The position numbers were made by a program, and so were the translations under genes. A stretch of DNA of 64,000 bases from Paraburkholderia fungorum (GTDB lineage: Bacteria; Pseudomonadota; Gammaproteobacteria; Burkholderiales; Burkholderiaceae). The stretch's first letter is position 1. Each line of letters starts with the position of its first letter. Shown here piece by piece: positions 43,813 through 58,826 of this stretch. The stretch lies in the NCBI RefSeq assembly GCF_900099835.1, contig NZ_FNKP01000002.1, forward strand, positions 2,480,001 to 2,544,000. The letters are read 5' to 3'. The notes below the pieces were generated by a model. The model did no database searches. It worked only from the letters and a program-made list of their open reading frames with translations, and had not been told where the DNA came from.

Positions 43813-44810
43813 AAGCAATTACATTCAACTCGTTTGGCGAAGCCGATGTACTCGAACTTCACGATGCGCCAGCGCCGGAGTTGCGTCCCGCCGACCTGCT
43901 CGTCTGCGTTCATGCCGCCGGCGTGAACCGGGCGGATCTCACGCACCGGCGAGGCGGCTACGGGCGGCCGAACTTCGGCGACTCGACGATCATGGGACTC
44001 GAAATCGCGGGCGAAGTTATCGAAACCGGCAGTGAAACTCAAGGCTTCAAGGTGGGCGACCGCGTGATGGGCGTCGTCGGCGGCGGAGCCTACGCGGAAA
44101 TCGCGCGCATCGATTACAGAATGGCGATGCCGGTTCCTGAATCGCTCGACTACGTGCATGCCGCCGCGATACCCGAAGTATTCGTCACCGCACATGAGGC
44201 GATGATGCATCTCGGCCGATTGAAACGCGGCGACTCGGTGCTGATTCACGCGGCTGCGGGCGGCGTCGGTTCGGCCGCCGTTCAGCTTGCTTATGCAACC
44301 GGCGCGTCGATTTTCGCCACGGCCGACGGCAACAAGCTGGAGCGTGTAGTGCAATTGGGAGCAGACGTGGTGATTGATTATCGCAAGCAGGATTTCGCGG
44401 AAGTGATCGCCAAAGCGACCGATGGGCGAGGCGTGGACGTGGTCATCGATTTTGTCGGCGCCCCGTATTTCAAGAGCAATATTGCATCGCTCGCGAATGG
44501 CGGCCGACTCGTTCAGGTCGGCATTCTTGGCGGTGGAGGCACCGTCAGCGTCGAGTTGGAACAGATTCTGTACAAGCACCTGCAGATTCTCGGCACGGTG
44601 ATGAAATCACGGCCGCAAGCGGAAAAGCACGACATGGTGAAGCGTTTTCGCGAACATTGGCTGGAACGCTTTGATGGTGGCGCGCGTCTTGAGCCGGTGG
44701 TCGATTCCACGTACCCGCTCGCGCGTGCCGCCGATGCTCATCGACGGATGGAGTCGGCGGCGAATGTCGGCAAGATCATTCTGACGATGGATGTAGCGAG
44801 CGTGTCGTAG
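43809..44810 (+). CDS. Zinc-independent quinone oxidoreductase (MDR superfamily)
   Basis: A 333-residue NADPH:quinone reductase of the zeta-crystallin/PIG3 type. The GroES-like N-domain starts MKAITFNSFGEADVLEL, and the Rossmann domain has AAAGGVGSAAVQLAYATGA. The zinc-binding Cys cluster of alcohol dehydrogenases is missing, as expected. It reduces quinones or enones with NADPH. Translationally coupled to the CMD gene. With the aldehyde dehydrogenase it forms a three-gene redox operon under the divergent LysR. Confidence 0.92.
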   Translation: MKAITFNSFGEADVLELHDAPAPELRPADLLVCVHAAGVNRADLTHRRGGYGRPNFGDSTIMGLEIAGEVIETGSETQGFKVGDRVMGVVGGGAYAEIARIDYRMAMPVPESLDYVHAAAIPEVFVTAHEAMMHLGRLKRGDSVLIHAAAGGVGSAAVQLAYATGASIFATADGNKLERVVQLGADVVIDYRKQDFAEVIAKATDGRGVDVVIDFVGAPYFKSNIASLANGGRLVQVGILGGGGTVSVELEQILYKHLQILGTVMKSRPQAEKHDMVKRFREHWLERFDGGARLEPVVDSTYPLARAADAHRRMESAANVGKIILTMDVASVS

Positions 44811-44823
44811 CGGACTGAACGAT

Positions 44824-44854
44824 GCGAAGCGGACCGCGCCGATATCCGCTTCGC
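44824..44854. terminator. Hairpin between convergent oxidoreductase and hmuV
   Basis: A perfect 10-bp stem, gcgaagcgga / tccgcttcgc, with an 11-base loop, starting 13 bases after the oxidoreductase stop and touching the last base of the hmuV stop codon. No U-tract. Confidence 0.55.
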
Positions 44855-45684
44855 TATCGGGATGCCGGAATCAGATACGGCGTCCCGTCCAGATCGTCAT
44901 GGACTACTCGCACCGCAAGCCCGAAACACTGCTCGATTACCGTTTCGCTGACTACTTCTTGCGGCGCACCTTCCGCGATCAGCCTGCCGTCTGCAAGAAA
45001 AATCATCCGGTCTGCGTAACGCGCTGCCAGGTTGCAATCGTGTGCAATCGCCAATGCACCGATGCCCCAGCTATGCGTCAACTCCTTCACCGTCGCGAAC
45101 AGTTTGTGCTGATGAACGAGATCGAGCGCAGCGGTCGGCTCGTCGAGCAGTAGAAATCGCGTGGATCTCTCTTGCGAATCGGCATCGTCGGAAAGCCACA
45201 GTTGCGCGAGCGTCCTGGCGAATTGTGCCCGCGCCAGTTCGCCGCCGGATAGCGTTGTTATATCGCGTGTTTTAAGGTGCGTGATGCCGGCCAAACCCAG
45301 CACGTCGTCAATAACGATCTGCTCGCCTACGCTGCTGCGTACACGTGATAAATGCGGATACCGTCCAATCGAAACGAGCTCTTCGACACGAATCGGAAAA
45401 CTATTCTGGAACGTTTGCGACAGCACCGCGCGAGTCCGGGCAAGCTGGTCAGAGCTGATGACATTGATCGGCTTGTCGTTCAGCAGCGTGGTCCCGCTGT
45501 AGCCGAAAAAATTTCGCACCGACGGCGCGTTGAAATCGCCTGCGAGCGCCTTGAGCAACGTGCTTTTGCCCGCGCCGTTACGGCCCAGCACCACGGTGAA
45601 TTCGCCGGGTCGGACGGCAAGCGACACATTGTCGATCACCGTGCGATCGCCGTATCTGACGTACACATTCTTTACTTCGAGCAT
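44854..45684 (-). CDS. hmuV: Heme ABC transporter ATP-binding protein
   Basis: A 276-residue ABC ATPase of the FecE/HmuV type. Walker A GRNGAGKST, signature LSGGELARAQFARTL, Walker B RFLLLDEPTAALD and the switch His after IAHDCNLAARYADRM are all seen. It powers heme import across the inner membrane with HmuU. GAGAG precedes the start. Last gene of the minus-strand hmu operon, 39 bases after hmuU. Confidence 0.93.
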   Translation of the reverse strand: MLEVKNVYVRYGDRTVIDNVSLAVRPGEFTVVLGRNGAGKSTLLKALAGDFNAPSVRNFFGYSGTTLLNDKPINVISSDQLARTRAVLSQTFQNSFPIRVEELVSIGRYPHLSRVRSSVGEQIVIDDVLGLAGITHLKTRDITTLSGGELARAQFARTLAQLWLSDDADSQERSTRFLLLDEPTAALDLVHQHKLFATVKELTHSWGIGALAIAHDCNLAARYADRMIFLADGRLIAEGAPQEVVSETVIEQCFGLAVRVVHDDLDGTPYLIPASR

Positions 45685-45723
45685 TCGCGTTCTCTCAACA
45701 AAATCCCGTTCGATTCGAGCACG

Positions 45724-46875
45724 TCACGCACCAAGCCTCTCGCGATTGCGAAGAATCAGCGCGAGGAAAAACGGACCGCCTATCAATGCAGTGAGGATGC
45801 CGAGCGGCACTTCGGCGGGCGCGGCAATCGTACGCGCGGCCAGATCGGACAGAACGGTTAGCGATGCGCCGAACAACATCGATCCTGGTAGAACCCAGCG
45901 TTGATCCGGGCCGCAAACGAGGCGCACACAATGCGGCGCAACGAGACCGATAAAGCCGATCTGTCCGGTACACGAGACGATCGCGCCGACGCTCAACGCA
46001 GCCGCAATCAACACGACGCGTTTGACTCGCTGCACAGGCACGCCGAGATGATGCGCTTCCATTTCGCCAAGCTGCATCACATTGAGCGCGCGACTGCATT
46101 TTCCGATCAGCGCCGCGCTCAGTGCGACCAGCGGCAGCAGAATCAGGATCGTGCGCCACTGCACGCCCGCGAGACTGCCGAGGCTCCAGAACGTCAGCGA
46201 ACGCAGTTGCGAATCCGATGCGACATACGTCATTACGCCGATCGTTGCACCTGCAAGCGCGTTCAGCGCGATGCCCGACAACAACAGCACGGGCAAGCTC
46301 AAGCGCCCTCGCCGCGCGGACAAACGGTAGACCAGTGCGGTAACGACGAGCGCCCCAGCAAATGCAGCGAACGCGGTCACGCCATCGCCCGCGAATCCAT
46401 AGCGCGACAATAGCCACGGCGCACAGACGATCGCGAGCGATGCCCCGAGCGCGGCCCCACTCGATATGCCGATCAAACCCGGATCGGCGAGCGGATTGCG
46501 CAGCAGTGCCTGCAACGCGCTGCCCGCCGCGCCGAACCCGGCGCCGACGATCAGCGCGAGCACGACGCGCGGCAGGCGGATCGACAGTAGAACGGCACGC
46601 GCCTGGTCGAGTATCGTCGGGTCCACGCCGAGTGCGCCGGGCCGCCACAGGGCCGCTAATAGCGTCGTGGGCGCTATCCGGTACGCACCGAGACAGATTG
46701 CGGCAACGCTCGACACGCATAGCAGCGCGCCCAGCGCAATCATCACGCTAAGCGGATTGCGTGCGCCGTTCGATCTGAAACCGGCGAACAGCGTGAAAAC
46801 AGCCCGTGGTCTACGCGATTTCATGATGCCCGGCGATGGTCCGCCTCCGACACGCGAGATTTTTTCGATGCTCAT
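45724..46875 (-). CDS. hmuU: Heme ABC transporter permease
   Basis: A 383-residue FecCD-family permease, with the family's PLADPGLIGISSGAALGA segment, TGQIGFIGLVAPHCVRL coupling region, and about ten hydrophobic segments. It forms the membrane channel for heme with HmuV. The N-terminal start is unsure: I use the ATG at 46875, but one at 46824 (MKSRRPRA) would give a length more usual for the family. No strong ribosome binding site is seen at either. Confidence 0.9.
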   Translation of the reverse strand: MSIEKISRVGGGPSPGIMKSRRPRAVFTLFAGFRSNGARNPLSVMIALGALLCVSSVAAICLGAYRIAPTTLLAALWRPGALGVDPTILDQARAVLLSIRLPRVVLALIVGAGFGAAGSALQALLRNPLADPGLIGISSGAALGASLAIVCAPWLLSRYGFAGDGVTAFAAFAGALVVTALVYRLSARRGRLSLPVLLLSGIALNALAGATIGVMTYVASDSQLRSLTFWSLGSLAGVQWRTILILLPLVALSAALIGKCSRALNVMQLGEMEAHHLGVPVQRVKRVVLIAAALSVGAIVSCTGQIGFIGLVAPHCVRLVCGPDQRWVLPGSMLFGASLTVLSDLAARTIAAPAEVPLGILTALIGGPFFLALILRNRERLGA

Positions 46876-46939
46876 GGCACTTCGCAAATAAAGGTTCGTC
46901 GCGAGCAGCTTGCATGCGGCGATGTGCAGACCAAGGCGT

Positions 46940-47851
46940 TCACGCCGCCGACACGAGTTGCCGGTTCAGCGCCATAACAGCCTCCGGTAAGCGCGGACCG
47001 AAGCCGAGCAGGAACAATGTGTCGAGCGAGACGATTCGCGAATTTCTGCCTGCGGGTGTCGATGCGAAACCCGGCGTGCCGAGAATCGCCGCCGCTCCGC
47101 CCGATACGGCGAGGGTGTCGTCGGTGGTCAGCACGACATCGGGCGCGGCGGCGATCAACGCTTCCGGCGAGAGGCTGCGATAACCATCGAAACCCTGAAT
47201 GGCATTGCGCGCTCCGGCGTAACTGATCATCGCGTCGGCGGCGGTGTGTTGCCCCGCGACCATCGGTTGACTACCCGAAGGATTCAGCAGAAACAGCACA
47301 CGCAGCGGTTGCGCGCGGCTCGCAAGCGGTGAGGCGGCGACGTTTTTTATCGCGTTGTCCCACTCGGCATCGACACGTTTGCGCAATGCCGCGCCATCTT
47401 CCATCGCGCCGAGTTCGCGCGCGACGCCGTCGATTTTTTTCCGCAGCGAATCCACGTTATGTGTTTCCGTGAACGACACGACGTTGACGCCTGTTTGCCG
47501 GATCTGCTGCAGCACACCTGGCGGCCCCGCTTCGGCGGAGGTCAGAATCAGATCGGGATGCATCGACAGCACACCTTCCGCCGATAACGTTCGCTGATAG
47601 CCGACCTTCGGCAGTTTCAGCACGGCAGCGGGAAACGTGCACGATGTATCGGTGGCGACGAGCATCGTGCTTTTGTCGAGCGCATACACGATCTCGGCCA
47701 GCGCACCGCCGATCACGATCACACGATTTGGCGCAGCGGTCTTTGTTATTGCCATCGCCATTCGCGAATTCAGCCCGGCCATACCGACTACCGCCGCGAC
47801 GCCGCCGACCACGATGCGGCGTCGATGAATGTCGAAGCCGCGCCGGCTCAT
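46940..47851 (-). CDS. hmuT: Periplasmic heme-binding protein
   Basis: A 303-residue class III solute-binding protein (HmuT/BtuF-like). The N-terminus has a twin-arginine-like signal (MSRRGFDIHRRRIVVGGVAA) with a long hydrophobic core. Mature-domain features are RVIVIGGALAEIVYALDK, the linker helix and the second-lobe APDVVLTTDDTLA. The start overlaps the hmuS stop by four bases (ATGA), which fixes it. It takes heme from the outer-membrane receptor to HmuUV. Confidence 0.92.
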   Translation of the reverse strand: MSRRGFDIHRRRIVVGGVAAVVGMAGLNSRMAMAITKTAAPNRVIVIGGALAEIVYALDKSTMLVATDTSCTFPAAVLKLPKVGYQRTLSAEGVLSMHPDLILTSAEAGPPGVLQQIRQTGVNVVSFTETHNVDSLRKKIDGVARELGAMEDGAALRKRVDAEWDNAIKNVAASPLASRAQPLRVLFLLNPSGSQPMVAGQHTAADAMISYAGARNAIQGFDGYRSLSPEALIAAAPDVVLTTDDTLAVSGGAAAILGTPGFASTPAGRNSRIVSLDTLFLLGFGPRLPEAVMALNRQLVSAA

Positions 47852-48960
47852 GCGGTCACCTCGGCAATGTTCTCCATAACCGGCGCGATGTTTGCAATCA
47901 GTTCTCGCCATCCTGCGAGTTCCGGCGAACCCGGTTTGCGCGCGCCGAACAGCATCGCAATGCTATCGCCTTTGCAGTCGAATAATTCAAGCGACGTCAC
48001 GATGCCATCGCTGGTCGGCTTGCGGACCACCCACGCGCTATCGATCAGATCGGTGCGCAAATGCAGATTGAAACCGGGGTCGAGCACATTGAGCCACGGA
48101 CCCATCGCCTGGATCGTCTTCACAGGTCCAGTATGAATCTGGATCATGCCGTGATTGCCAACGAACACCATGATCGGCAATTCAGTTTGCGCGGCCTGAT
48201 TCAATACCGTTGCGATCGCGTCGTTCGCGACGCGCTGCGCGTAACGCGACTCGGCAAGACGCAGCGCCTGAGTACGTGCAAGCCTGAACTTGCGCAACAA
48301 GCCGAAGAACTGATGCGTGTCGGTCATTGCATGCCATGCGGCGTGAAACGCTTGCACGTCGATGTCCTCGTCGGGCGTCGGCACCGGCGCAGCAGGCGCG
48401 GCGGTCACCGTCATTCCCGCCGTCTGCTCCACATGTGCCCAGCGTTCGACAAATGCCGCGTAGGCTGCGTGATCGCTGTGCTCGCGCAGATAAACCTTGT
48501 GGGTAGCGTGGCCTTGCGCGTCGAAGAACTGCAAACTCTTCAGCGTGCCGCGCGGCGTGACGTCGGTGACAGCAAAACCGGCTGCCCATTTGCTGTAGAA
48601 AATCCGCAGATCGATCGGATCGCCGAGTGCAATGCCGGTCGGCCCCTCATGGCTCATATTGGCGAACTGGCCATCTTTCTCGTGCACGGCGGCGTCGTTG
48701 CGCGTCAGCGCCATCACCGAGCCGAGCATCGGCACCTCTTCAAACAGCTCGATAAAACGCGTGTCGAGTCGCACGACGTGTTCGCCGACAAATGCGGCAA
48801 GCACCTCGCCTTCGCTGATACCGAGCGCAAACGCGGCTTCGCGGTTACGCAGTTTCTGCTCGGCCTTGATACGCACAAAATCGTTGCGCAATTGTTCGAG
48901 CGATTCCGGTTGGGTCGTATAGCTGTTCTTCACGATTGTCATTGGATTGGATAGCTTCAT
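47848..48960 (-). CDS. hmuS: Hemin-degrading/heme-trafficking factor
   Basis: A 370-residue cytoplasmic protein of the HmuS/HemS/ShuS family with two similar halves. The family openings are seen in both: QKLRNREAAFALGISEGEVLAA (first half, shortened to RNREAAFALGISEGEV) and FGLLRKFRLARTQALRL with VGNHGMIQIHTGPV in the second. It binds heme after import and helps release iron. The start is at 48960 or the in-frame ATG at 48942; neither has a strong ribosome binding site. Confidence 0.92.
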   Translation of the reverse strand: MKLSNPMTIVKNSYTTQPESLEQLRNDFVRIKAEQKLRNREAAFALGISEGEVLAAFVGEHVVRLDTRFIELFEEVPMLGSVMALTRNDAAVHEKDGQFANMSHEGPTGIALGDPIDLRIFYSKWAAGFAVTDVTPRGTLKSLQFFDAQGHATHKVYLREHSDHAAYAAFVERWAHVEQTAGMTVTAAPAAPVPTPDEDIDVQAFHAAWHAMTDTHQFFGLLRKFRLARTQALRLAESRYAQRVANDAIATVLNQAAQTELPIMVFVGNHGMIQIHTGPVKTIQAMGPWLNVLDPGFNLHLRTDLIDSAWVVRKPTSDGIVTSLELFDCKGDSIAMLFGARKPGSPELAGWRELIANIAPVMENIAEVTA

Positions 48961-49095
48961 GCTGAAAGTTGGGAAAGTCCGGCACGCTGTCACTAATGCG
49001 TCGTGCCGGACTCGCGAATCATCCGGATTCGATTCGTCAATCACGCGATGCAGGGCGATGCACTCGCGCTGAGATTGCGAAGAACCCGACGCCGG

Positions 49096-51432
49096 TCAGA
49101 AGTCGATCTTCATACCGACGTTGAAGTTACGGCCCGGCGCGGTGAGAGCCGAAATCTTCGCGTAGCCGTCGCTATCGGCAAGGCCTCGCACGTCATTCCA
49201 GATCCAGTACTTGCGATCGAACAGGTTATCGATACCGGCTGTCACGCTGACGTGTTTGGTGATTTTGTAGCCTGCGTGCAGGTCGAAAATCGTGTACGAC
49301 GGGGTCGAGTAGTACGACGCGCTCGACATCTGGTCCTTGTCTTTGCGCGAGTTGTACGTCATGTCCACGCCCGCAAACCAACGGTCGCCGCCGGTGTAAC
49401 GAATGCCCAACACCACCGCCAGCGGCGGAATCGTATCGAGTCCGGTCGTCTTGCCGTCTTCGGTTTCCGTGCCTTTGATATAGGCAAAACCGCCCTTCAC
49501 TTCGATCGAATCGCTGACGATCCAGTCGGCCTTGCCTTCAAAGCCATGAATCGACGCCTTCGTGAAGTTCACGTACTGAACCGTGTACGGATTCGTCGCG
49601 GACGACGTGCTGCCGCCGATAACCTTGGTGTCGATGAAGTTGTTGTAGCGCCCAGCGAACGCAGCTCCGCTGTAGTTCAGGATGCCGGTACCAACTCCGA
49701 GTTGGCCGCGAAAACCTGCTTCAATCGAATTACTGGTTTCCGGCTTCAGATTCGGATTGCCTACCTGCTGATAGTAGAGACCGTACGAGCCCGCAGGGTT
49801 ATAGAAGCTGTTGACCTGATACGCGCTAGGCGCACGGAAACCTCGTGCATATTGCACATACGGAATGAATGCCGGCGACACCTGATACAGCAACGCCAGT
49901 CGCGGCGAAATTGCATTGCCGTTCGAGCCGGTCGTCGGCTTGGTCGAACTTGCGCTCACTTCCTCGTACGTTGCGTCGGGATGCGGCGTCATCTTGTAGT
50001 AATCGAAGCGCACGCCCGGCACGAAACTCAGCTTGTTCCAACGGATTTCATCCTGGGTGTACACGCCGAGGTTGATTTGCGAGGTCTTCGGGAATGCTTC
50101 CGGATAACCGTCTGTCGGCGTGCTCCACTCCGAGCCCGCTGAACTGCTGGTGCTGTAGTGCGACAGGCTGGCATCGAAGCCATATGTCACGCTATGCGAC
50201 AACGGACCGGTCCTGAACGCGCTCTCCGCGACGACGCTGCCGCCGAAGATGTTGTCGCCGTATTCGTTGGTTCGAGTTCGGCTGCTTTCCGCGCCAGCCG
50301 AATTTACGCCATCGATCAACAGAGACTGACGTGTCTGCGCATTACGGTAGTACACCGAAGCTTTAAGTTGCTGCATCCACGGATTGGTGTCGTCGTGATG
50401 ATCGTATTCGAGCTTCACGCGGTTGCTGGTCACCTGGTTGACGGTGTTGTACACGTCCGCCGAGTAGCCGCTCCACGTATAGCCGCCGTTCAATTGCGTG
50501 AGGCCGTCACTTGAATTGGCGTTATTCAGCGTTTCCGCAGTCAATTTCAGCTGATCGCGTGGCGTGAGGTTGAACACCAGTTTGCCGAGCGCACTGCGAT
50601 TGTTGTACGTCAGCGGATCAGGGGTCGAACGGTTCGCGCCCAGCACGTTGCTGTCGCCCTTGTTGTCGGTCTCGTGACCGTGACGGCCGCTCAGCACGAG
50701 CATGCCTTGAATCCGGTCGTTGCCGAACGCGGCAGTCGCGGTAGATCCCCAACTACGGTCCGTTGAATCGTAGCCCGCTTTCACCGAAAAATAGGTGGGC
50801 TTGTTGTAGATCGACAGCAGATCGGCCGGGTCTTTGGTGACGAAATTGACCGCGCCGGTCAGGCCGTCGCTGCCATATAGCACCGACGCAGGTCCACGCA
50901 GCACTTCGATACGTTGATAGAGATCGGTGTTCAGATAGTCGCCACGACCGGCCGAACCTGAGCCGAATGCATACGATTGCGGCAAAGGAATGCCGTCTTC
51001 CAGCATCAGAACCTGATTGCCTTCGAGGCCGCGAATGTTGATGCCTTCGTTACCCGCGCGTCCCGACGAGCCGGTAATGCCCGCCGGACGATACGCCTGG
51101 CGACGCACTTCGACGCCCGGCTCATAGCGCAACGCGTCCTTGATGTCCTTCGCGTTGTTATCGTCGATGTCGTCGCTGGTAATCACCGAGACCGTTGCCG
51201 CCGTGCGATTCAGATCGACTTTGCCAACCCGGTTCGCGGTCATGCTGATCGTTTTCAACTGACGGTCCGCCTGGATCGCGGTCGGTGCCGATGCGGCGGG
51301 CGCGCTCGCCGCGACCGGTGCGTCGGCTTTAGCCTGTAACTCCGCTGCGTACGCGCCGCCGTTTTGCGCTACACAAATATCCGCCAGCAACGCCGGCACG
51401 ACAATCTTGAACAAACATCTGTTTATGTACAT
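49096..51432 (-). CDS. hmuR: TonB-dependent heme/hemoglobin receptor
   Basis: A 778-residue outer-membrane receptor. A signal peptide and an Ala/Pro-rich linker lead to the plug (VSVITSDDIDDNNAKDIKD; GNEGINIRGLEGNQVLMLED; VEVLRGPASVLYG read as IEVLRGPASVLYGSDGLTG) and a beta-barrel ending in aromatic Phe (NFNVGMKIDF). The TonB box region lies near LKTISMTANR. The overall type is TonB-hemoglobin/transferrin/lactoferrin receptor. GGGGAAAG precedes the ATG. First gene of the hmu operon; a Fur-like site lies upstream. No tonB-exbBD genes are in the window. Confidence 0.93.
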   Translation of the reverse strand: MYINRCLFKIVVPALLADICVAQNGGAYAAELQAKADAPVAASAPAASAPTAIQADRQLKTISMTANRVGKVDLNRTAATVSVITSDDIDDNNAKDIKDALRYEPGVEVRRQAYRPAGITGSSGRAGNEGINIRGLEGNQVLMLEDGIPLPQSYAFGSGSAGRGDYLNTDLYQRIEVLRGPASVLYGSDGLTGAVNFVTKDPADLLSIYNKPTYFSVKAGYDSTDRSWGSTATAAFGNDRIQGMLVLSGRHGHETDNKGDSNVLGANRSTPDPLTYNNRSALGKLVFNLTPRDQLKLTAETLNNANSSDGLTQLNGGYTWSGYSADVYNTVNQVTSNRVKLEYDHHDDTNPWMQQLKASVYYRNAQTRQSLLIDGVNSAGAESSRTRTNEYGDNIFGGSVVAESAFRTGPLSHSVTYGFDASLSHYSTSSSAGSEWSTPTDGYPEAFPKTSQINLGVYTQDEIRWNKLSFVPGVRFDYYKMTPHPDATYEEVSASSTKPTTGSNGNAISPRLALLYQVSPAFIPYVQYARGFRAPSAYQVNSFYNPAGSYGLYYQQVGNPNLKPETSNSIEAGFRGQLGVGTGILNYSGAAFAGRYNNFIDTKVIGGSTSSATNPYTVQYVNFTKASIHGFEGKADWIVSDSIEVKGGFAYIKGTETEDGKTTGLDTIPPLAVVLGIRYTGGDRWFAGVDMTYNSRKDKDQMSSASYYSTPSYTIFDLHAGYKITKHVSVTAGIDNLFDRKYWIWNDVRGLADSDGYAKISALTAPGRNFNVGMKIDF

Positions 51433-51881
51433 TTATTCTTTCCCCGTCCGCGGTGTCATGCGCCCTTCGCATGACTCACCTGCGCAATCTAGAGTCGAAT
51501 TGTAATGTTTGAATGCGAATCATTGCTATTTGCGTTTACTGAATTAGATTACGGATTGTTTCAATCGGGCTTTCTAAATGATTGGAAGATGTTGATATGA
51601 CGGCGAAAAATGGCCGACGAGGACCAGATCGCGCCGGCAAGAAAGGGACTTCCCGGCATCACTTGTAACTAGTTTTTTGGCGCGCGCTGTAAGCAAGATA
51701 CGCAGAGAGTGCGGTCTGGGGCATGACGTGGACGTGCATGAGACTGACCGTTAGTTGCGCATTTGTACGAAACTCGCACTGGATTTATTCATCACGAGGC
51801 GATCCTGCGGGACCGCCAAAGAAATCGATTTCGACGAAACGGTTGCGCGACATATAAATTCGCGGTCGCCAACCGCCCTGG
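51433..51881. other. Intergenic region, 449 bases, upstream of the hmu operon
   Basis: Holds the hmu promoter on the minus strand and the end of the flavoreductase operon. A moderate Fur-like site is at 51509-51527. AT-rich around 51500-51600. No sigma-factor or other gene is supported here. Confidence 0.4.
51509..51527. promoter_or_regulatory. Weak Fur-box candidate upstream of hmuR
   Basis: The sequence ttgaatgcgAATCATTgct keeps seven of seven bases of the AATCATT half of the Fur consensus but only some of the other half, about 11 of 19 overall. Its position, about 80 bases before the heme receptor gene, fits. Confidence 0.4.
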
Positions 51882-53516
51882 TCAATAAACATCGCGCCGA
51901 TATCGCCCCGCCTCGCGCAGTGAGTCCACTCGCGCTTCGCCGATAACATCGACCAAAGCAGCCTGCACCGTCTGCGCCATTCGTTGCGCGCTACCACATA
52001 CGTAGATCGATGCGCCGCCCTCAACCCATTGCTGCACATGCCCGGCCGCACCGCGGATTGCATCGTGCACGTAGCGATATTCACCGCCATCGCGCGACCA
52101 CACCTGGTCCAGTCGCTCAAGCACACCAGCAGCCCTCCAATGCGCAATTTCGTCCGCGTGAAACGTATCGTGCGCGGCGCTGCGTTCACCAAAAATCAGC
52201 CAGTTTCGACGATGACCACACTCGGCCCGATGCTTCAGATGCGCACGCAAACCCGCGAGTCCCGTCCCCGCACCGATGAGGATCAGCGGACGATCATCCG
52301 ATGGCGCGTGAAAGCCACGATTCGTGCGCACGCGCACGCTGATCGATGCGTCGGGTGGAGCATGCCGCGTCAGCCAGCCCGAAGCGAGTCCGAGACCGAT
52401 ACCTTCACTGGACGACGCATCGGGATAACGCGCCTGCCTCACAAGCAATTCGAGCCGACCATCAGCCGGCAATGACGAGATCGAGTACTTTCGCGAAGGT
52501 AACGGCTCGCATGAATCGACGATGACCTGAGGCGACTGCCCGCGCAACACGTCGACTTTTACCGGCAACGTGCGTGTTGAAATTGCTTCGGATAGCTTGA
52601 TTATTTTTCTATCGCAATCGACAGCCGTGTCGCCGTCCAGACACAGCATGCGCAGCCATGCCGCTACAACAGCTTCTGGATGTTGCGGACGAATTTCTGC
52701 GATATCACCAGGTTGCCAGTTCAGTGCGGCTGGATCGTCGGGTTTGAGACAGACATGAAACGCCGGATTGCCGGCGCTACCGGGATTAAGCAAATTTCGC
52801 TGATCAAGAATCCAGCGCGTGCCCGAAAGGGGCGTAAGTACTTCGTCGCCACCTTCAAACGCCGACGAGGAGAGACGCTCATGCCACAACCGCAATGCGG
52901 CCGGGTCGCCATTATTCACTTCGATCAGGTCGAACAGCGACTGCGCGCGACGATCGCGCAGCCAACGATCAACCATGTGACCGAACGCGCAAAAATCGCG
53001 ATAATTCCGGTCGCCTAATGCAAGCACCGCATAATGCAACGTCTGCAGCGACTGCGCCGCGCCAGCGCTCATCACCTTGCGCACGAAGCTCACGGCGTTG
53101 TCGGGCGCATCGCCCTCTCCAGTCGTGCTGACAATGAACAAGGCCTGGTTATATCGCATGAGCGCATCGAAGCCGAGTGTGTCGAGCGATTCCAACTGAA
53201 CGACACGGCCTGCGCGCCGAAACAGTTGCGCAGTCTGTACGGCGAGTTGTTCGGCGAACCCGGTCTGGCTCGCGTATGCGACCAATACAACCGTGTTGTC
53301 AGCATTGCCGCGCACGGTGTTCGCCCCAACCTGACGCGAACGTCGACGATGGGCACGGAGCACGCCAACGCACATCGCCAGATAAGCGACGATCACGCCG
53401 CCCGCCATCGCAAGTCGCGTCTCGCCGAAATACGCCATGCCCGCGCCGATCAAACTCAACGCGGACCAGATTAATGTGGATCGGAAACCGTCCGGACGGA
53501 ACACACGCAACGTCAC
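51882..53516 (-). CDS. Membrane-anchored flavodoxin / FNR-type flavoreductase (sulfite reductase flavoprotein-like)
   Basis: A 544-residue diflavin reductase. Two N-terminal membrane segments (STLIWSALSLIGAGMAYFG; MAGGVIVAYLAMCVGVL) anchor it; then a flavodoxin-like FMN domain (VVLVAYASQTGFAEQLAVQT; ALGDRNYRDF), an FAD domain with RKYSISSLP and an NADPH site LILIGAGTGLAGLRAHL ending GSAQRMAQTVQAAL. The GTG start at 53516 overlaps the apbE stop (GTGA). It should pass electrons from NADPH through FAD and FMN to a membrane partner, probably the PepSY protein of the same operon. Confidence 0.88.
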   Translation of the reverse strand: MTLRVFRPDGFRSTLIWSALSLIGAGMAYFGETRLAMAGGVIVAYLAMCVGVLRAHRRRSRQVGANTVRGNADNTVVLVAYASQTGFAEQLAVQTAQLFRRAGRVVQLESLDTLGFDALMRYNQALFIVSTTGEGDAPDNAVSFVRKVMSAGAAQSLQTLHYAVLALGDRNYRDFCAFGHMVDRWLRDRRAQSLFDLIEVNNGDPAALRLWHERLSSSAFEGGDEVLTPLSGTRWILDQRNLLNPGSAGNPAFHVCLKPDDPAALNWQPGDIAEIRPQHPEAVVAAWLRMLCLDGDTAVDCDRKIIKLSEAISTRTLPVKVDVLRGQSPQVIVDSCEPLPSRKYSISSLPADGRLELLVRQARYPDASSSEGIGLGLASGWLTRHAPPDASISVRVRTNRGFHAPSDDRPLILIGAGTGLAGLRAHLKHRAECGHRRNWLIFGERSAAHDTFHADEIAHWRAAGVLERLDQVWSRDGGEYRYVHDAIRGAAGHVQQWVEGGASIYVCGSAQRMAQTVQAALVDVIGEARVDSLREAGRYRRDVY

Positions 53517-54637
53517 TCGAGCATCGCCGCATAGGCGGGACTGACGGCCTCGCCGAAACCATCGGCGGTGCGCGTCACACAGCGTGCGGCAATCCGTTCC
53601 CGATGCGCGAGCGCCATACCCGCATCCGGGCCGAGCACCATCAAGGCGGTCGATAACGCGTCGGCAAGCATGCATTCGCGATGCACCACCGTGACGGACG
53701 CCAACGCATGGTTCGCCGGATGGCCGGTGCGTGGATCGATGGTATGCGCGTAATGACGCTGTGCATCGCGGTCGACGAAATAACGGCGGTAGTCGCCCGA
53801 CGTCGCCACGGAAAGACCATGCAGTGCGATCAGATCATGCGTCGGCAGTGTATTACGAGAGTCATGAAGCACGTCGACATGCAGCGGCGTTTCAATTTCG
53901 ACCCACCACGGCATGCCGTCCGGCTTCACGCCTTCACCGCGCAATTCGCCACCAATTTCGACCAGATGATGACCGATGCCGACGTGCGTCAATGCTTCGC
54001 TAACGGCATCGACCGCATAACCTTTGGCGATCGCACACAAATCGAGCGACGCGTGACCGGGTTGCAGAACGCGCAGTGTCGAGCGATCCAGTTCGATGCG
54101 CGACCACCCGCAATAGCGCCGGATCGCCTCTACTTCAGCCGCAGATGGAGCGTATTCACGTCGCCCTGCCGGACCGAATCCCCACAAATTGATTAGTGGT
54201 CCAGCGCAAGGATCAAATGCACCACCGGTGAGACGTGCAACCTTCAACGCCGTTTCGACGACATCGAAGCATGCGTCAGACAACGTCACCCAGCTTCCCG
54301 CTGGGGCGCAATTGAAACGACTTATGTCAGAGTCATCGCGCCAGTTGCTCATCCCGGCGATGACCGAGTCGAGCACCGCGCGGATCGTCGCATCAATCGC
54401 TTCATCATGATTGCGTTGCAGGTCAATTGCCGCGACCCCGGATTCGCCCGCAGGAACCACGCATTGCACGCTCCACGTCGTGCCCATTGTGTCACCGCAC
54501 AATCCTGCCACACGCCCTGTCACGCCTGCGGTGATCCCGGCGCACAACAGTTGCGAAGGTACGAGAACGCGTCGCGCGACTTCGGCAGCAATGAATTTTG
54601 CACCTTCGGTACGTGAAGTCGCGGGACTCGTGGTCAT
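53513..54637 (-). CDS. apbE: FAD:protein FMN transferase
   Basis: A 374-residue ApbE-family enzyme, which attaches FMN from FAD to a Thr/Ser of target proteins. Family features are DTMGTTWSVQ, the Asp-rich FDPCAGPLINLWGFG, DLCAIAKGYAVDAV, VEIGGELRG, HTIDPRTGHPA and LADALSTALMVLG. Magnesium ligands are in this last group. An odd feature is the N-terminus: no clear signal peptide or lipobox, although targets in other systems lie outside the membrane. Its likely target is the DUF2271 protein two genes upstream. Start at 54637 is preferred over a TTG that abuts the previous stop. Confidence 0.92.
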   Translation of the reverse strand: MTTSPATSRTEGAKFIAAEVARRVLVPSQLLCAGITAGVTGRVAGLCGDTMGTTWSVQCVVPAGESGVAAIDLQRNHDEAIDATIRAVLDSVIAGMSNWRDDSDISRFNCAPAGSWVTLSDACFDVVETALKVARLTGGAFDPCAGPLINLWGFGPAGRREYAPSAAEVEAIRRYCGWSRIELDRSTLRVLQPGHASLDLCAIAKGYAVDAVSEALTHVGIGHHLVEIGGELRGEGVKPDGMPWWVEIETPLHVDVLHDSRNTLPTHDLIALHGLSVATSGDYRRYFVDRDAQRHYAHTIDPRTGHPANHALASVTVVHRECMLADALSTALMVLGPDAGMALAHRERIAARCVTRTADGFGEAVSPAYAAMLE

Positions 54638-54652
54638 GCTTTCGTCCGGCAA

Positions 54653-55477
54653 TTACTGCGGCAGAACTTCAAACGTCGCGGCGTAATTCACGCGACGCGA
54701 CTTCGCATTTTTTATCGTGGTCTGCGAGTCTTGCACGCTGGCTTCCATCCAGTACATTCCCGCCGACGGCCATTTCACGTTGAAGCGTCCATCGGCATCG
54801 GTCGTCACAGTCGTCTCGCCGACCTGATCGCGATAACGAACGCCACCCGGCACAACTTCAACCTTCACGTTAGACGCGGGCTTGCCATCCAGCAGCAAAC
54901 GAAAGCTCGCGTCGCCGTTTGCCACGAGATCGTTCGGATGCGTGACAGGCGTCATTTCAAGGCCGCGCCCCGTAGTTTTCAGCGCAGTCGTGGTCGGCTT
55001 GCCGCGCGTCACAAACGATTCGACACGCGCTTCCGTCTGCGTAATCTGAAGATCCTGCGCGTCTGCGGGCACTTCTTTCGCCAGGCTCTGTTCGTTGCCA
55101 CGCCAGCGACGTGTCTCACCATTGAGCTTGTAACTCGCGACCAGTCCGTGATTCTCGACGGCAATCTTGTACGTACCCTCCTGCGTCAGATGCACGTCGA
55201 ACACGCTGCGATAGCGGCCCGTATTTGCGTTATCGACCTTCACCGGGTTGCCGTCCGGCCCAGTGACGACGAGGCCGTCGAGACGCAGTGGAAAGTGATC
55301 GAAGTAGAACAGATCGTTGGAGACAGCCGCATCCACGGTGACCCACGGATCGTTGCCCGACATAACCGTCGCCGACGGCAGCAACCACATGCGATGAGCG
55401 TGAGCGGCGAGCGGGGCAAGCGCCGAGATCGCCAATACGGACACGACCGACAGTTTCTTCAGGGAGAGTTTCATCAT
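54653..55477 (-). CDS. DUF4198 periplasmic protein
   Basis: A 274-residue exported protein. Signal peptide MMKLSLKKLSVVSVLAISAL cleaved near AHA, then HRMWLLPSATVMSGNDPWVT, the DUF4198 signature, with a start shared with NikM-like nickel-uptake accessory proteins. The C-terminal part (from PNDLVANGDASFRLLLDGKP) is a carboxypeptidase-regulatory-like beta-sandwich. His after the signal could bind metal. It may deliver or hold a metal for the flavinylated partner. The role in iron systems is not established. GGTG precedes the ATG. Confidence 0.85.
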   Translation of the reverse strand: MMKLSLKKLSVVSVLAISALAPLAAHAHRMWLLPSATVMSGNDPWVTVDAAVSNDLFYFDHFPLRLDGLVVTGPDGNPVKVDNANTGRYRSVFDVHLTQEGTYKIAVENHGLVASYKLNGETRRWRGNEQSLAKEVPADAQDLQITQTEARVESFVTRGKPTTTALKTTGRGLEMTPVTHPNDLVANGDASFRLLLDGKPASNVKVEVVPGGVRYRDQVGETTVTTDADGRFNVKWPSAGMYWMEASVQDSQTTIKNAKSRRVNYAATFEVLPQ

Positions 55478-55595
55478 GGCACCTATACAGCGATAAGAAT
55501 CTGGCGAAATCGCACCGGGGCACATGCACGCGGCGAAAAAAGCGCGGCCGATGCGGCTTGCGCACTACGCGCACGTTGTCCGGTTCGAATCGGAA

Positions 55596-56120
55596 TCAGG
55601 GTTTGACGGTCAGCATCACGGAACCGAGTTCGTGATCGCCCTTCGCCTGCAATGTTTTCGCCGATGCAGGCGGCCATGTGAACGGCACGCGCACGAGTTC
55701 ACGACCGCCGACTTCGCGCGCGGTCTCCACCACCAGTTGATATTCGCCGGCCGGCAACTTGCCGAGCGGCGCTTTGCCATCGGCGAAAGTGATTGCCTGT
55801 TCGCCGGGCGCGCGTGTCGCACCCGACACGCCGTCAGCGGGCATCGTCATATCGCGGCCTGCCTTACGCCACCATTGACGCATGTCCTTCAGCCATTTCG
55901 CGCCCTCGCCGTCTTTCTTCTTCTGGTCGTACCACACCGCCAGCGTCGTCACGGGTGTCTGATCCGCCTTCTCGATCCACATCGATAGATAAGGCTTGTG
56001 GTACTCCGCGACGTCGAGGTGCGGAATGTCGACCGTAACGTTCATTTCAGCCGCGGCAGCAGCACCGGCCAGCGGCGCTGTAACCAGGCCCGTCAGCGTG
56101 ACGGCGAGCAATCGACGCAT
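55596..56120 (-). CDS. DUF2271 protein with ApbE flavinylation motif
   Basis: A 174-residue exported protein. The signal peptide (MRRLLAVTLTGLVTAPLAGA, cut near AAA-AE) is followed by a beta-sandwich typical of DUF2271 (VDIPHLDVAEYHKPYLSMWI; TLAVWYDQKK). Residues 96-102 read DGVSGAT, the D-x-x-S/T-G-A-T motif at which ApbE links FMN to the Thr in NqrC, RnfG and FMN_bind proteins; Thr102 would be the site. GAAAGG precedes the ATG at 56120; the longer frame is not exported. I take it as the flavin-carrying electron-transfer protein of the operon. Confidence 0.85.
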   Translation of the reverse strand: MRRLLAVTLTGLVTAPLAGAAAAAEMNVTVDIPHLDVAEYHKPYLSMWIEKADQTPVTTLAVWYDQKKKDGEGAKWLKDMRQWWRKAGRDMTMPADGVSGATRAPGEQAITFADGKAPLGKLPAGEYQLVVETAREVGGRELVRVPFTWPPASAKTLQAKGDHELGSVMLTVKP

Positions 56121-56145
56121 TGCAAACCTTTCAGAGATTGAATAG

Positions 56146-56796
56146 TTAGTGAATGAAGATGATCGCGAGCAACAGCGGTATGACGATCCCCAATCCAACG
56201 AGTGGCCAGGTTGCGCCGCGATTGCGCGCGTGCAGTTTCAGAAGAAACAGCCCGGTGATGCTGAAAACAAGGCATGCGAGCGCGAACACGTCGAGAAAGA
56301 GACTCCATGCACCGCCCGTGTTGCGTCCTTTGTGCAAATCGTTCAGATAGGAAATCCAGCCGCGCGTGGTCAGTTCGTATTGCATGTCGCCCTTCGAAAG
56401 ATCCACGCTGACCCAGCCATCGCCGCCTGGCCTGGGAAGCGCGATATAGACTTCGTCGCCCGACCATTCGGCTGTGCGGCCCTGCGTATCGATACCAAGT
56501 TGACGGTCCAGAAACGTGCTTAATTCAGCGGGAATCCCGGCTTTCTCCCGATTAGGAATCCGACTTATTGCATGCGCCATTCCGTCCGGAAGATGCACGC
56601 TATGCCGCTTGACGACCGGATGCGCCTCGATGCTGCCCGCGTGATTCAACGTGAGGCCCGTGACCGCGAACAGCATCATGCCGATCAGGCAGACTGCCGA
56701 GCTGATCCAGTGCCACCGGTGTAGATGCCGAAGCCAGAATGCCCGGCGCTGCGGTGCTTTGGCAGGCGCCATGCCCCCGTTGAGTTGAGTTTCCAT
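56146..56796 (-). CDS. PepSY-associated transmembrane protein
   Basis: A 216-residue inner-membrane protein of the PepSY_TM type. An N-terminal membrane helix (WISSAVCLIGMMLFAVTGL) is preceded by His residues in LRHLHRWHW, then a periplasmic PepSY-like segment (DGWVSVDLSKGDMQYELTT), and two C-terminal helices (LFLDVFALACLVFSITGLFL; GLGIVIPLLLAIIFIH). Histidines at LHRWHW, LNHAG and NDLHKG could hold heme, so it may carry electrons across the membrane. First gene of its operon; a strong Fur box lies 53-71 bases upstream of the start codon. Confidence 0.87.
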   Translation of the reverse strand: METQLNGGMAPAKAPQRRAFWLRHLHRWHWISSAVCLIGMMLFAVTGLTLNHAGSIEAHPVVKRHSVHLPDGMAHAISRIPNREKAGIPAELSTFLDRQLGIDTQGRTAEWSGDEVYIALPRPGGDGWVSVDLSKGDMQYELTTRGWISYLNDLHKGRNTGGAWSLFLDVFALACLVFSITGLFLLKLHARNRGATWPLVGLGIVIPLLLAIIFIH

Positions 56797-56848
56797 TGTC
56801 CCGTTGCTTATACGACCTGCCTGCCGCGAATGTCTTTGCTTAGCGGTG

Positions 56849-56867
56849 AATGATAATTGTTATCATT
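56849..56867. promoter_or_regulatory. Fur box upstream of the PepSY/DUF2271/ApbE operon
   Basis: AATGATAA-TTG-TTATCATT, a perfect 8-3-8 inverted repeat that agrees closely with the Fur consensus (GATAATGATAATCATTATC). Position, just upstream of the minus-strand PepSY gene, predicts iron repression of the whole operon. Confidence 0.85.
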
Positions 56868-56943
56868 TTCACGGACAAGATTGTAAGGTTACGGAATGTT
56901 TCAACCAAGTAATTTGTAGGGAAACTGCCAACGCCGGCGTACT

Positions 56944-57444
56944 TCAGTCCGAAGACTTGACACCTTCGCGCTGCGCCGACGCACGAAATGCGTCGACGAG
57001 TTTGTCGACGATATGGTTGAGCGCCGTATGTTCGTCGTGACTGAGCACCGATAACAATTCGGCTTCCAGCGCCTGCCCGAGTTCGTCGCTGGCCGCGCGC
57101 GTGCGCTTGCCTGCCGGCGTAGGCCACAACTGGAAATGACGCGCGTCGTCGGGATGAATGGTCCGGCGCACCTGTTTGCGCTCGATCAGATCCGCCATCA
57201 CCTTGGACAGCAGCGTCTTTTCAATCAGCGTTTGCTCCTTCACAGCCGTCGCCGTAATTCCGGGCGCGTCGCAAATGATCCTCAGCACACGCAGCGAGCG
57301 CACATCGAGACCGCACGCCGGCTTGTACACAGCATTGGCGCGGCTGATCATCTCGGTCCTGATCAGGTCCAGCTTGAACGTCAGGAAATGCGCAAACTTC
57401 ATGTCTTCGGTGACAACGCTGCTTTTCGGCTTGGCTGGTGACAT
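56944..57444 (-). CDS. MarR-family transcriptional regulator
   Basis: A 166-residue winged-helix protein. Features of the MarR fold are SLRVLRIICDAPGITATAVK, EKTLLSKVMADLIERKQVRR with the wing TIHPDDARHFQLWPTPAGKR. It lies between the PepSY operon and the divergent M20 amidohydrolase; a perfect inverted repeat in the gap to the M20 gene is its probable operator. Hence it likely responds to an acylated amino acid or related compound, not iron. Confidence 0.88.
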   Translation of the reverse strand: MSPAKPKSSVVTEDMKFAHFLTFKLDLIRTEMISRANAVYKPACGLDVRSLRVLRIICDAPGITATAVKEQTLIEKTLLSKVMADLIERKQVRRTIHPDDARHFQLWPTPAGKRTRAASDELGQALEAELLSVLSHDEHTALNHIVDKLVDAFRASAQREGVKSSD

Positions 57445-57571
57445 ACCGGCTCGTATTTCCCAGATCGGAAGAGGTGACTAGAGTCGCCCACACACCTCAC
57501 GACGAGGTGTTCGGGACAGAACAGATGATAGACGAAACTTTTTTGTCGCACTAACGTGTCCGTAAAATCAC

Positions 57572-57590
57572 TAGTTGAAACTTGCAACTA
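57572..57590. promoter_or_regulatory. Candidate MarR operator
   Basis: TAGTTG-aaacttg-CAACTA, a perfect 6-7-6 inverted repeat, typical of MarR sites in size, between the MarR gene and the divergent amidohydrolase (82 bases before its ATG). Confidence 0.6.
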
Positions 57591-57671
57591 TTGAAGTATC
57601 TTCCTGAAACTGAATCGCCCCGCTCCCGCGAACGACGGTTCTATTTTCATCATGATTCGAAGGATGCCGGC

Positions 57672-58826
57672 ATGCAGACAAATGTGGAATGGAATGCGCT
57701 CGCGGAATCGATGCGCACATGGCGACGCAATATTCATCAGCATCCCGAGTTGGGTTTTCACGAACACCGCACCGCCGAAATGGTCGCGAATCTTCTGACT
57801 GGTTGGGATATCGAAGTGCAGACGGGTGTCGGCGGCACGGGCGTGGTCGGCACTATTCGCGGCACGCAGGGCGCGGGTTTGTCGATCGGACTGCGCGCGG
57901 ACATGGACGCGTTGCCGATGCAGGAAAAGGGCACCGTTGCGCATCGTTCGAAACATGACAACGTTTTCCACGGCTGCGGCCACGACGGCCATACGTCCAT
58001 TCTGCTCGGCGTTGCGAAGCAATTGTCGGAGCATCGCGCGTTTCGCGGCACTGTCCACCTGATCTTTCAACCGGCTGAAGAAACGCTGCGCGGCGGGTCC
58101 GAGATGATTCGCGATGGTCTCTTCGAGCGTTTTCATTGCGACGAAATCTACGCGCTGCACAACAACAACGCGCTGCCCGCCGGCAAAGTCGGCGTACGTA
58201 GCGGCGCGATTCTTTCGGCGTGCGATCTCTTCAGGATTACCGTTCAGGGCGTCGGCAGCCACGCCGCGATGCCACACCGTTCAGTCGATCCGTTGATGAT
58301 CGGCGCGGCGATCGTGCAATCCATTCAGAGCATTGTCAGCCGCAATATCGATCCACTCGACACCGCCGTGGTCAGCGTCTGCAAGTTCATAGCAGGCACC
58401 GCGATCAACGTGATCCCCGACACGGCGCTACTGGAAGGGACAGTGCGCACACTGTCCGTCGCCGCGCAGGAACTGACGCTGAAACGTCTGCGCGATATCT
58501 GCGACGGCGCTGCCCGGATGTATGGATGCAGGGTCGAATTCGAACATCTTCAGAGTTCACCGCCAACCGTCAACACACCCGAACAGACTGAAATCGTTCG
58601 CGCCGCAGCGGAACACGTATTGGGCGTCGACAACGTGATTCCCGACGTGGCGCCGCTCATGGCATCAGAAGACTTCGCTTTCATGTTGCAGCAGCGGCCC
58701 GGCTCATACTTTTTCCTCGGACACGACGGCTTGACCTGCCATCATCCAGAATTCGATTTCGACGACGACACTGCACCTGCCGGCGCGGCCGTGTTCCTCG
58801 AAATCGTGCGCAGCCGGTTGGGTTGA
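57672..58826 (+). CDS. M20-family amidohydrolase (hippurate hydrolase / N-acyl amino acid deacylase)
   Basis: A 384-residue M20D metallohydrolase. Metal-binding motifs RADMDALPMQE, HGCGHDGH and QPAEET are in place, as is the C-terminal SEDFAFM. These enzymes cleave amide bonds of N-acyl or N-aromatic amino acids (hippurate, N-acetyl amino acids, auxin conjugates). The start at 57672 has AAGGA upstream; the frame is open 30 codons further without a site. It is followed 33 bases downstream by a transporter gene. Confidence 0.9.
   Translation: MQTNVEWNALAESMRTWRRNIHQHPELGFHEHRTAEMVANLLTGWDIEVQTGVGGTGVVGTIRGTQGAGLSIGLRADMDALPMQEKGTVAHRSKHDNVFHGCGHDGHTSILLGVAKQLSEHRAFRGTVHLIFQPAEETLRGGSEMIRDGLFERFHCDEIYALHNNNALPAGKVGVRSGAILSACDLFRITVQGVGSHAAMPHRSVDPLMIGAAIVQSIQSIVSRNIDPLDTAVVSVCKFIAGTAINVIPDTALLEGTVRTLSVAAQELTLKRLRDICDGAARMYGCRVEFEHLQSSPPTVNTPEQTEIVRAAAEHVLGVDNVIPDVAPLMASEDFAFMLQQRPGSYFFLGHDGLTCHHPEFDFDDDTAPAGAAVFLEIVRSRLG

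Follow-up and report, generated by a model that had tools for sequence, protein, structure and literature searches.

A predicted Fur-controlled PepSY-like flavinylation operon in Paraburkholderia fungorum, a probable periplasmic ferric reductase with a probably leaderless ApbE

Background

Five consecutive minus-strand genes in a stretch of 64,000 nucleotides of Paraburkholderia fungorum (contig NZ_FNKP01000002.1; "the window" is this whole stretch) raise the question of where a bacterial cell sends electrons when it places a diflavin reductase, a flavin transferase and a PepSY membrane protein behind one Fur box. The genes encode, in the order of transcription from 56796 to 51882, PepSY_TM_like_2, DUF2271, DUF4198, ApbE and diflavin reductase proteins (Pfam), and heme-uptake genes follow them. 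An initial annotation had proposed a transmembrane chain from NADPH (reduced nicotinamide adenine dinucleotide phosphate) to Fe(III) or heme iron in the periplasm. We regard the operon, with a probability of about 0.8, as orthologous to the PepSY-like flavinylation operon of the CC3059-3063 type, which is Fur-repressed, and as an assimilatory periplasmic ferric reductase. For this we draw on gene content, gene order, the Fur box, the flavinylation motif, conserved histidines and neighbouring genes, all observed here, and on Fur control, DUF2271 flavinylation and fitness in EDTA (ethylenediaminetetraacetic acid), which come from published relatives.

The operon type is already known, both as a five-gene model and in its Fur control, and the window holds another member. 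In Caulobacter crescentus, CC3059-3063 (CCNA_03155-03159) is a Fur-repressed operon induced in iron limitation, with 12- to 51-fold values in two table columns that we take as iron limitation and the fur mutant; a promoter fusion responds to iron and Fur, and mutants have lower fitness in EDTA (PMC3751524, PMC12004947). Its genes, annotated as PepSY/'transporter', DUF2271, DUF4198, ApbE and 'sulfite reductase flavoprotein', run in the same order, and the likeness is one of gene order and annotation. The Caulobacter operon belongs to another genus, and the window copy, in contrast, adjoins hmu genes.

Meheust et al. (2021, eLife) described a PepSY-like flavinylation system for which iron reduction was proposed. 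Their survey counted 3220 PepSY-like clusters; ApbE is a frequent partner, DUF2271 accompanies 2833 and DUF4198 1500 (PMC8238504). The initial annotation was unsure whether such surveys name DUF2271 and PepSY; this one describes them in detail (PMC8238504). The operon shares with that system PepSY (PF16357/PF03929), ApbE, DUF2271 and DUF4198: both PepSY Pfam models score over their cut-offs, ApbE accompanies a DUF2271 protein with the target motif, and this DUF2271 has a leader. Two features were not found in print, in the literature searched: the probable absence of a leader from ApbE, and the absence of the second histidine from the operon's DUF4198.

Results and discussion

Operon, Fur box and relatives

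All five genes lie where they had first been annotated, and Pfam confirms their families (Table 1). Fur boxes were scored with a 7-1-7 consensus, and TGATAATTGTTATCA is the sole site with fewer than 3 mismatches among 3 window matches, so that the claim of a near-perfect box before the operon holds. A promoter-like -10 at 56855-56850 overlaps it, although promoter-like hits are about as frequent there as chance would give (3, mean 2.5). Across the 8.58 Mb genome the relaxed pattern TGATAATNNTTATCA has 2 perfect matches. From its near-perfect box, the window promoter is probably Fur-controlled. The other exact match to TGATAATNNTTATCA (G000:C3:471616-471630, L089) lies ahead of what reads, from its open reading frame (ORF), as a superoxide dismutase-like gene.

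Table 1. Positions of the operon genes and associated features in the window (aa, amino acids; E, E-value; AF2, AlphaFold2).
Feature	Position	Strand	Basis or remark
Fur box TGATAATTGTTATCA	56851..56865		7-1-7 consensus, one mismatch
PepSY_TM_like_2 membrane protein, 216 aa	56146..56796	-	PF16357, E 1.1e-80 (Pfam); AF2 model
DUF2271 protein, 174 aa	55596..56120	-	PF10029, E 2.8e-51 (Pfam)
ApbE target motif DGVSGAT	55835-55815; acceptor Thr codon 55817-55815	-	DUF2271 sequence
DUF4198 protein, 273 aa	54653..55474	-	PF10670, E 1.1e-58 (Pfam)
ApbE flavin transferase	53513..54652 (alternative ATG start 54637)	-	PF02424, E 1e-84
Membrane-anchored (predicted) diflavin reductase, 544 aa, GTG start 53516	51882..53516	-	Pfam, NCBIfam
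Terminator-like hairpin	51862..51876	-	just past the reductase stop; such hits at chance frequency in the region
hmuRSTUV heme-uptake genes, outside the operon	44854..51432	-	heme receptor above NCBIfam cut-off; hmuSTUV from weaker matches and order

The same arrangement recurs widely. Among the best 80 of 368 loci found by a PepSY query scan of genome contigs, 67 have all five genes in the same order and on the same strand, as shown by tblastn searches with the proteins of the window. Of these 80 loci, 72 exceed 15 kb, which leaves room for the window's arrangement, and the rest are shorter. Upstream of PepSY, a Fur score of at least 10 (simple 7-1-7 consensus, maximum 14) is reached in 59 of the 80 loci, compared with 23 of 400 windows drawn at random from the same loci. 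The check proposed with the initial annotation, a search for the gene set and its Fur boxes across genomes, thus comes out in its favour. In two of the 13 remaining loci, L018 and L040, a contig end truncates the set, and L049 is without an ApbE match. The other ten, mostly Sphingopyxis and all labelled alphaproteobacteria, are without a reductase match, and L076 among them is also without DUF2271 and DUF4198. In L064, L067, L070, L074, L078 and L083-L086, PepSY, DUF2271, DUF4198 and ApbE are present with no matching diflavin reductase nearby, so that the electron donor of these clusters must be encoded elsewhere. Within the genus the operon is patchy, because few of the sampled genomes match (4 of 34 others have a DUF2271 match, at lower scores) though other Paraburkholderia entries have orthologues. 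Of the four, the two that were inspected, L002 and L003, hold another DUF2271 subtype outside this operon, with a response regulator and a small exported protein as neighbours.

The reductase has the flavodoxin and FAD/NADPH-binding parts (FAD, flavin adenine dinucleotide) of the CysJ/P450-reductase type and resembles both CysJ and P450 reductase in sequence: Flavodoxin_1 (E 5e-27) and NAD_binding_1 (E 3.4e-07) lie above their Pfam cut-offs, and FAD_binding_1 (PF00667) below its own, with 16.1 of 32.3 bits. It is not the CysJ sulfite reductase flavoprotein proper, at 246 bits against an NCBIfam cysJ cut-off of 668. A Ser-Arg pair, a mark of NADPH enzymes, is kept in 69/69 reductases compared, and the hydrophobic N-terminal segment seen in hydropathy should be a membrane anchor. 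The last three genes appear to be coupled in translation: the ApbE and reductase frames share 4 bases, and ApbE in its longest frame opens right behind the DUF4198 stop.

The DUF2271 protein has a Sec-like signal peptide by hydropathy and carries the flavinylation motif claimed for it, DGVSGAT, with the acceptor Thr kept in 80/80 proteins. Of 79 relatives, 69 have the strict form [ST]GA[ST], and DGx[ST]S[PA]T or DGVTGPT takes its place in the remaining 10. An apbE gene is in the same locus as each variant (L042, L044, L046, L047, L058, L066, L071, L079, L080, L086). The window protein is 74% identical to DUF2271 of Amantichitinum ursilacus (L016), which is flavinylated at [S/T]GA[S/T] and loses this on a Thr to Ala change (PMC8238504).

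Heme iron or siderophore iron

The heme-uptake operon lies downstream on the same strand, as annotated, and this neighbourhood suggests a rival explanation: the chain would serve heme iron and, jointly with the adjacent hmu system, reduce heme or iron derived from it in the periplasm. The hmu genes begin 449 bases past the reductase stop, behind the terminator-like hairpin, and the stretch upstream of hmuR gave no Fur-like match that exceeded shuffled sequence, so that they are probably a separate transcription unit. Nor do they accompany the operon elsewhere: HmuS, HmuT and HmuU match in none of the 80 related loci, the closest included, and the matches to HmuR (8/80) and HmuV (3/80), at 56-77 bits, are of the weak kind that other receptors and ATPases would give. 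In the closest relative, Paraburkholderia metrosideri (L008; PepSY 85% identity), a LysR gene stands where the window has hmu. We consider the explanation through heme iron very improbable, and a heme role argued from hmu adjacency is rejected on the related loci without hmu.

Another pair of iron genes does recur: a YbiX/PiuC Fe(II) dioxygenase and a TonB receptor are present in 22/80 loci, which bears out the expectation of siderophore genes near the gene set and speaks against the claimed heme link. In L038 the two pass their NCBIfam cut-offs as Fe2+-dependent dioxygenase and catecholate siderophore receptor Fiu. This receptor is the only one typed individually, and those at the other PiuC loci are 29-69% identical to it. 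On these neighbours, ferric-siderophore iron is a better guess for the substrate than heme iron. In the P. fungorum genome itself a second, distant PepSY gene, for a short protein, is the immediate neighbour of a piuC gene, of which the genome has two copies: at G000:C2:2797675-2799059 (L203) a TonB receptor-like ORF, a PiuC/YbiX dioxygenase and the short PepSY protein stand in a row. Iron-responsive receptors are also the neighbours of DUF4198/DUF2271 pairs in Alteromonas.

Electron path through the PepSY protein

Hydropathy and the AF2 model (predicted local distance difference test score, pLDDT, 80.8) both give the PepSY protein three transmembrane helices, modelled at 13-51, 163-190 and 196-215, with one PepSY-like domain between helices 1 and 2. 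His29, His155 and His216 are kept in 81/81 sequences, His189 in 80/81 and His26 in 78/81. If the N-terminus lies inside, as we assume, the model would place His29 and His189 at the inner and His155 and His216 at the outer membrane face. The PepSY_TM proteins FoxB and HiuB likewise have conserved histidines on both faces and carry out periplasmic ferrisiderophore reduction; by analogy with FoxB, two bis-His hemes in the window protein are a fair inference. The likeness is that of a PepSY-type membrane protein with conserved histidines. FoxB-type proteins have two PepSY domains and at least four transmembrane helices, in contrast to one domain and three helices here; the two His pairs that hold two hemes in FoxB compare with four or five conserved histidines in the window protein, with no pairing seen, and unlike FoxB/HiuB the window set has a dedicated diflavin reductase and a flavin protein.

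Natural fusions suggest where electrons go next. A query of PepSY plus DUF2271 gave 39 PepSY-DUF2271 fusions among the 120 matches listed of 6215; all carry DGx[ST]GAT, and the end of PepSY helix 3 is linked to the start of mature DUF2271. This puts the flavin domain at the PepSY end, as the likely next electron carrier. The fusion itself is not new, because the Alteromonas work had already noted a DUF2271 fused to a PepSY-type domain (and another to an ApbE-type domain). In six fusions inspected (among P0246-P0296, P0357) helix 3 ends in AHA directly before mature DUF2271, and helix 3 of the fusions might serve as a leader and be cleaved.

We therefore propose the following working order of events, in which we infer heme binding in this protein, the direction of electron flow, the substrate, the role of DUF4198 and the import route. 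When iron is short, Fur would leave the promoter. Electrons from NADPH would enter at the diflavin reductase, on the cytoplasmic side of the inner membrane, and move over FAD to FMN (flavin mononucleotide), and they would cross the membrane through histidine-bound heme in the three-helix PepSY protein. Covalent FMN on periplasmic DUF2271 would accept them and reduce Fe(III), most likely bound to a siderophore or chelate, and the N-terminal histidine of DUF4198 probably holds or passes on metal. Fe(II) import may use an FTR1-type importer, which is suggested because no convincing FeoB was found in the genome: the FeoB_N model has 8 matches, the best at 50 bits, which frame length lets us read as other GTPases, and FTR1 has one match. 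The chain first drawn for this operon, from NADPH over diflavin and PepSY heme to DUF2271 FMN, thus agrees with the published operon type and with the fusions, its heme and direction staying conditional; of its two periplasmic targets, the Fur-linked iron role is supported and heme iron is not.

Points against, and other metals

Several observations weigh against this ferric reductase chain. The Fur score is below 10 in 21 of the 80 loci with the simple consensus, and 19/80 loci are Achromobacter with near-identical upstream sequence and box, so that the counts are not independent. Ten of the 80 loci have no nearby reductase match and one no ApbE match; the electron donor is accordingly not always this reductase. 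His189 is replaced by Tyr in 38/39 PepSY-DUF2271 fusions, which argues against a fixed heme pairing. A structure search with the PepSY model listed neither FoxB nor any convincing match, and searches with single sequences of PepSY, DUF2271 and DUF4198 gave no convincing match to solved structures; the missing FoxB match is no evidence against a FoxB-like fold.

A further point against it is that the chain could reduce another metal, DUF4198 being its periplasmic carrier, and so act in the handling of copper, nickel, cobalt or zinc. The closest folds of DUF4198 are Zcp (9MHI-9MHN) with Cu, Zn or Co bound and the Ni-bound DUF4198 of Ideonella sakaiensis (9GCB; PMC12537917), and a Bordetella PepSY_TM protein, CrpH, supports copper-dependent oxidase function (PMC13038864). 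The DUF4198 profile reached the Zcp entries, which bear another name, at E 3e-08; 9GCB was not among the matches, and no publication on Zcp was found in the literature searched. A predicted signal peptidase site, AHA|H, would leave the operon's DUF4198 with a mature N-terminal His (codon 55396-55394) that is kept in 79/79 relatives, and the Ideonella protein likewise keeps a metal-binding N-terminal His. The second metal-binding His of 9GCB is His18 (PMC12537917). The alignment of operon DUF4198 has no conserved counterpart of it, and nearly all of these proteins have Asp in the strand where 9GCB has His18. At mature positions 12-30 a His occurs in 0/80 operon proteins against 26/44 non-operon proteins, a count that includes L118 and L121, cut at the wrong histidine, and leaves L126 unclassified; in a second operon set it occurs in 7/30, at several places. 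With this missing nickel-site histidine, and with Fur boxes, the published Fur regulon and PiuC/TonB-receptor neighbours all indicating iron, we judge another metal improbable. A nickel role taken from DUF4198 homology is weakened on the same grounds, the missing second His and the Fur and PiuC context.

A transferase without a leader

Neither the probable lack of a leader on ApbE nor the metal-site logic of DUF4198 was part of the initial annotation. Most ApbEs are exported, and cytosolic ones exist whose target is soluble fumarate reductase (PMC12052999). The operon enzymes were scored by the 12-residue hydrophobicity of the stretch before the catalytic core, with a line at 1.8. Of 77 operon ApbEs, 72 were scored (in 5 the core pattern was not recognisable), and 27 of 29 others served as controls, leaving aside one without a start and L195, which adjoins DUF2271. 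A score of at least 1.8 is reached by 10/72 operon ApbEs against 26/27 controls (medians 1.22 and 2.61); the sole control below the line, L184, probably has a wrong offset at a contig end. We judge 7 of the ten high-scoring operon enzymes (six Luteibacter, one Allopusillimonas) to have real leaders. In the same loci DUF4198 leaders reach the line in 77/79 cases and DUF2271 leaders in 54/76 (three of 79 had no anchor), the latter meaning that the hydropathy score misses some true leaders. Thus most ApbEs of this operon type may be leaderless while their DUF2271 substrate has a leader, and the flavin may be attached before export.

The window ApbE is a borderline case that we judge, from its sequence, to be without a signal peptide. 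It is 374 aa long from the ATG and 379 aa from the TTG start, and its score of 1.86 (hydropathy only) is just above the line. The high-scoring stretch is the [VI]L[VI]P segment that is common in leaderless enzymes; it contains Pro and Gln, and about 25 mostly polar residues precede it. The TTG start is immediately preceded by a stop codon in the same frame, so that the window ApbE cannot extend further upstream. When 96 ApbEs are placed in a tree, those of the operon fall into a single supported group of 74 rows, control L195 included, with Luteibacter as one sub-clade; the window's nearest supported neighbours, P. metrosideri and then A. ursilacus with Silvimonas (99/90), all score below 1.8. 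The operon ApbE is the only strong PF02424 match in the genome; another, weak match (27.2 bits in all) is a 317-aa frame, in whose ORF no leader is seen.

On the one hand, the enzyme could have an unusual export signal or a wrongly annotated start, with flavinylation in the periplasm as in textbook systems. This agrees with the fairly hydrophobic stretch at the window N-terminus, with the clear leaders of the Luteibacter and Allopusillimonas enzymes in the same clade, with leader-like N-termini on three ApbE-DUF2271 fusions and with a lipoprotein-like leader on the operon ApbE of L253. Against it stand the nature of that stretch, the in-frame stop and the 62/72 operon enzymes below the line (1/27 among the others), and we give it somewhat less than even odds. 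On the other hand, a cytoplasmic ApbE would flavinylate the DUF2271 preprotein before Sec transport, which implies unfolded, flavin-loaded export, and the His to Asp swap in DUF4198 would mark the change from a nickel-type to an iron carrier; we advance this combination tentatively, as rather unlikely. Export of DUF2271 by the twin-arginine (Tat) route as an answer to the puzzle is rejected, since 0/76 DUF2271 leaders contain a Tat-like [STKNHR]RR.[FLVMI] motif and RR occurs at all in 21/76.

The published A. ursilacus experiment touches this question. Truncated proteins co-expressed in E. coli yielded flavinylated DUF2271, and the cognate ApbE construct was described as 'signal peptide-truncated' (PMC8238504); the reaction can therefore occur without export. 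The apbE frame of L016, from A. ursilacus, starts five codons after an in-frame stop, with no signal peptide seen. The 2021 survey excluded genes without a leader or lipidation site from its first count and later kept clusters where at least one target gene had such a site; its available text is silent on leaderless ApbE in PepSY-like clusters (PMC8238504). Cytosolic ApbEs appear in the available texts only for soluble fumarate reductase and the trypanosomatid enzymes (PMC12052999, PMC8238504), and the literature searched, which covered few subscription papers, does not mention a leaderless ApbE with an exported substrate.

Neighbouring genes

Upstream of the operon, on the same strand, a MarR-type regulator gene lies at 56944-57444. 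Among the 80 loci only P. metrosideri L008 has a match to it, a copy with 92% identity at the corresponding position. Rfam gave no match in 44000-58000, that is, no known RNA element near the operon.

Conclusions

Since the five-gene model and its Fur control are already published, the probably leaderless ApbE is the part most worth testing. In our reading the operon is a widespread, little-studied route to reduce ferric iron outside the cytoplasm, and it opens two questions: where a transferase that lacks a leader attaches the flavin, and which metal DUF4198 holds in an iron operon. If flavinylation does take place before Sec export, it would be an exception to the view of extracytosolic flavinylation as dependent on an exported ApbE, and one that extends across several families of Proteobacteria.

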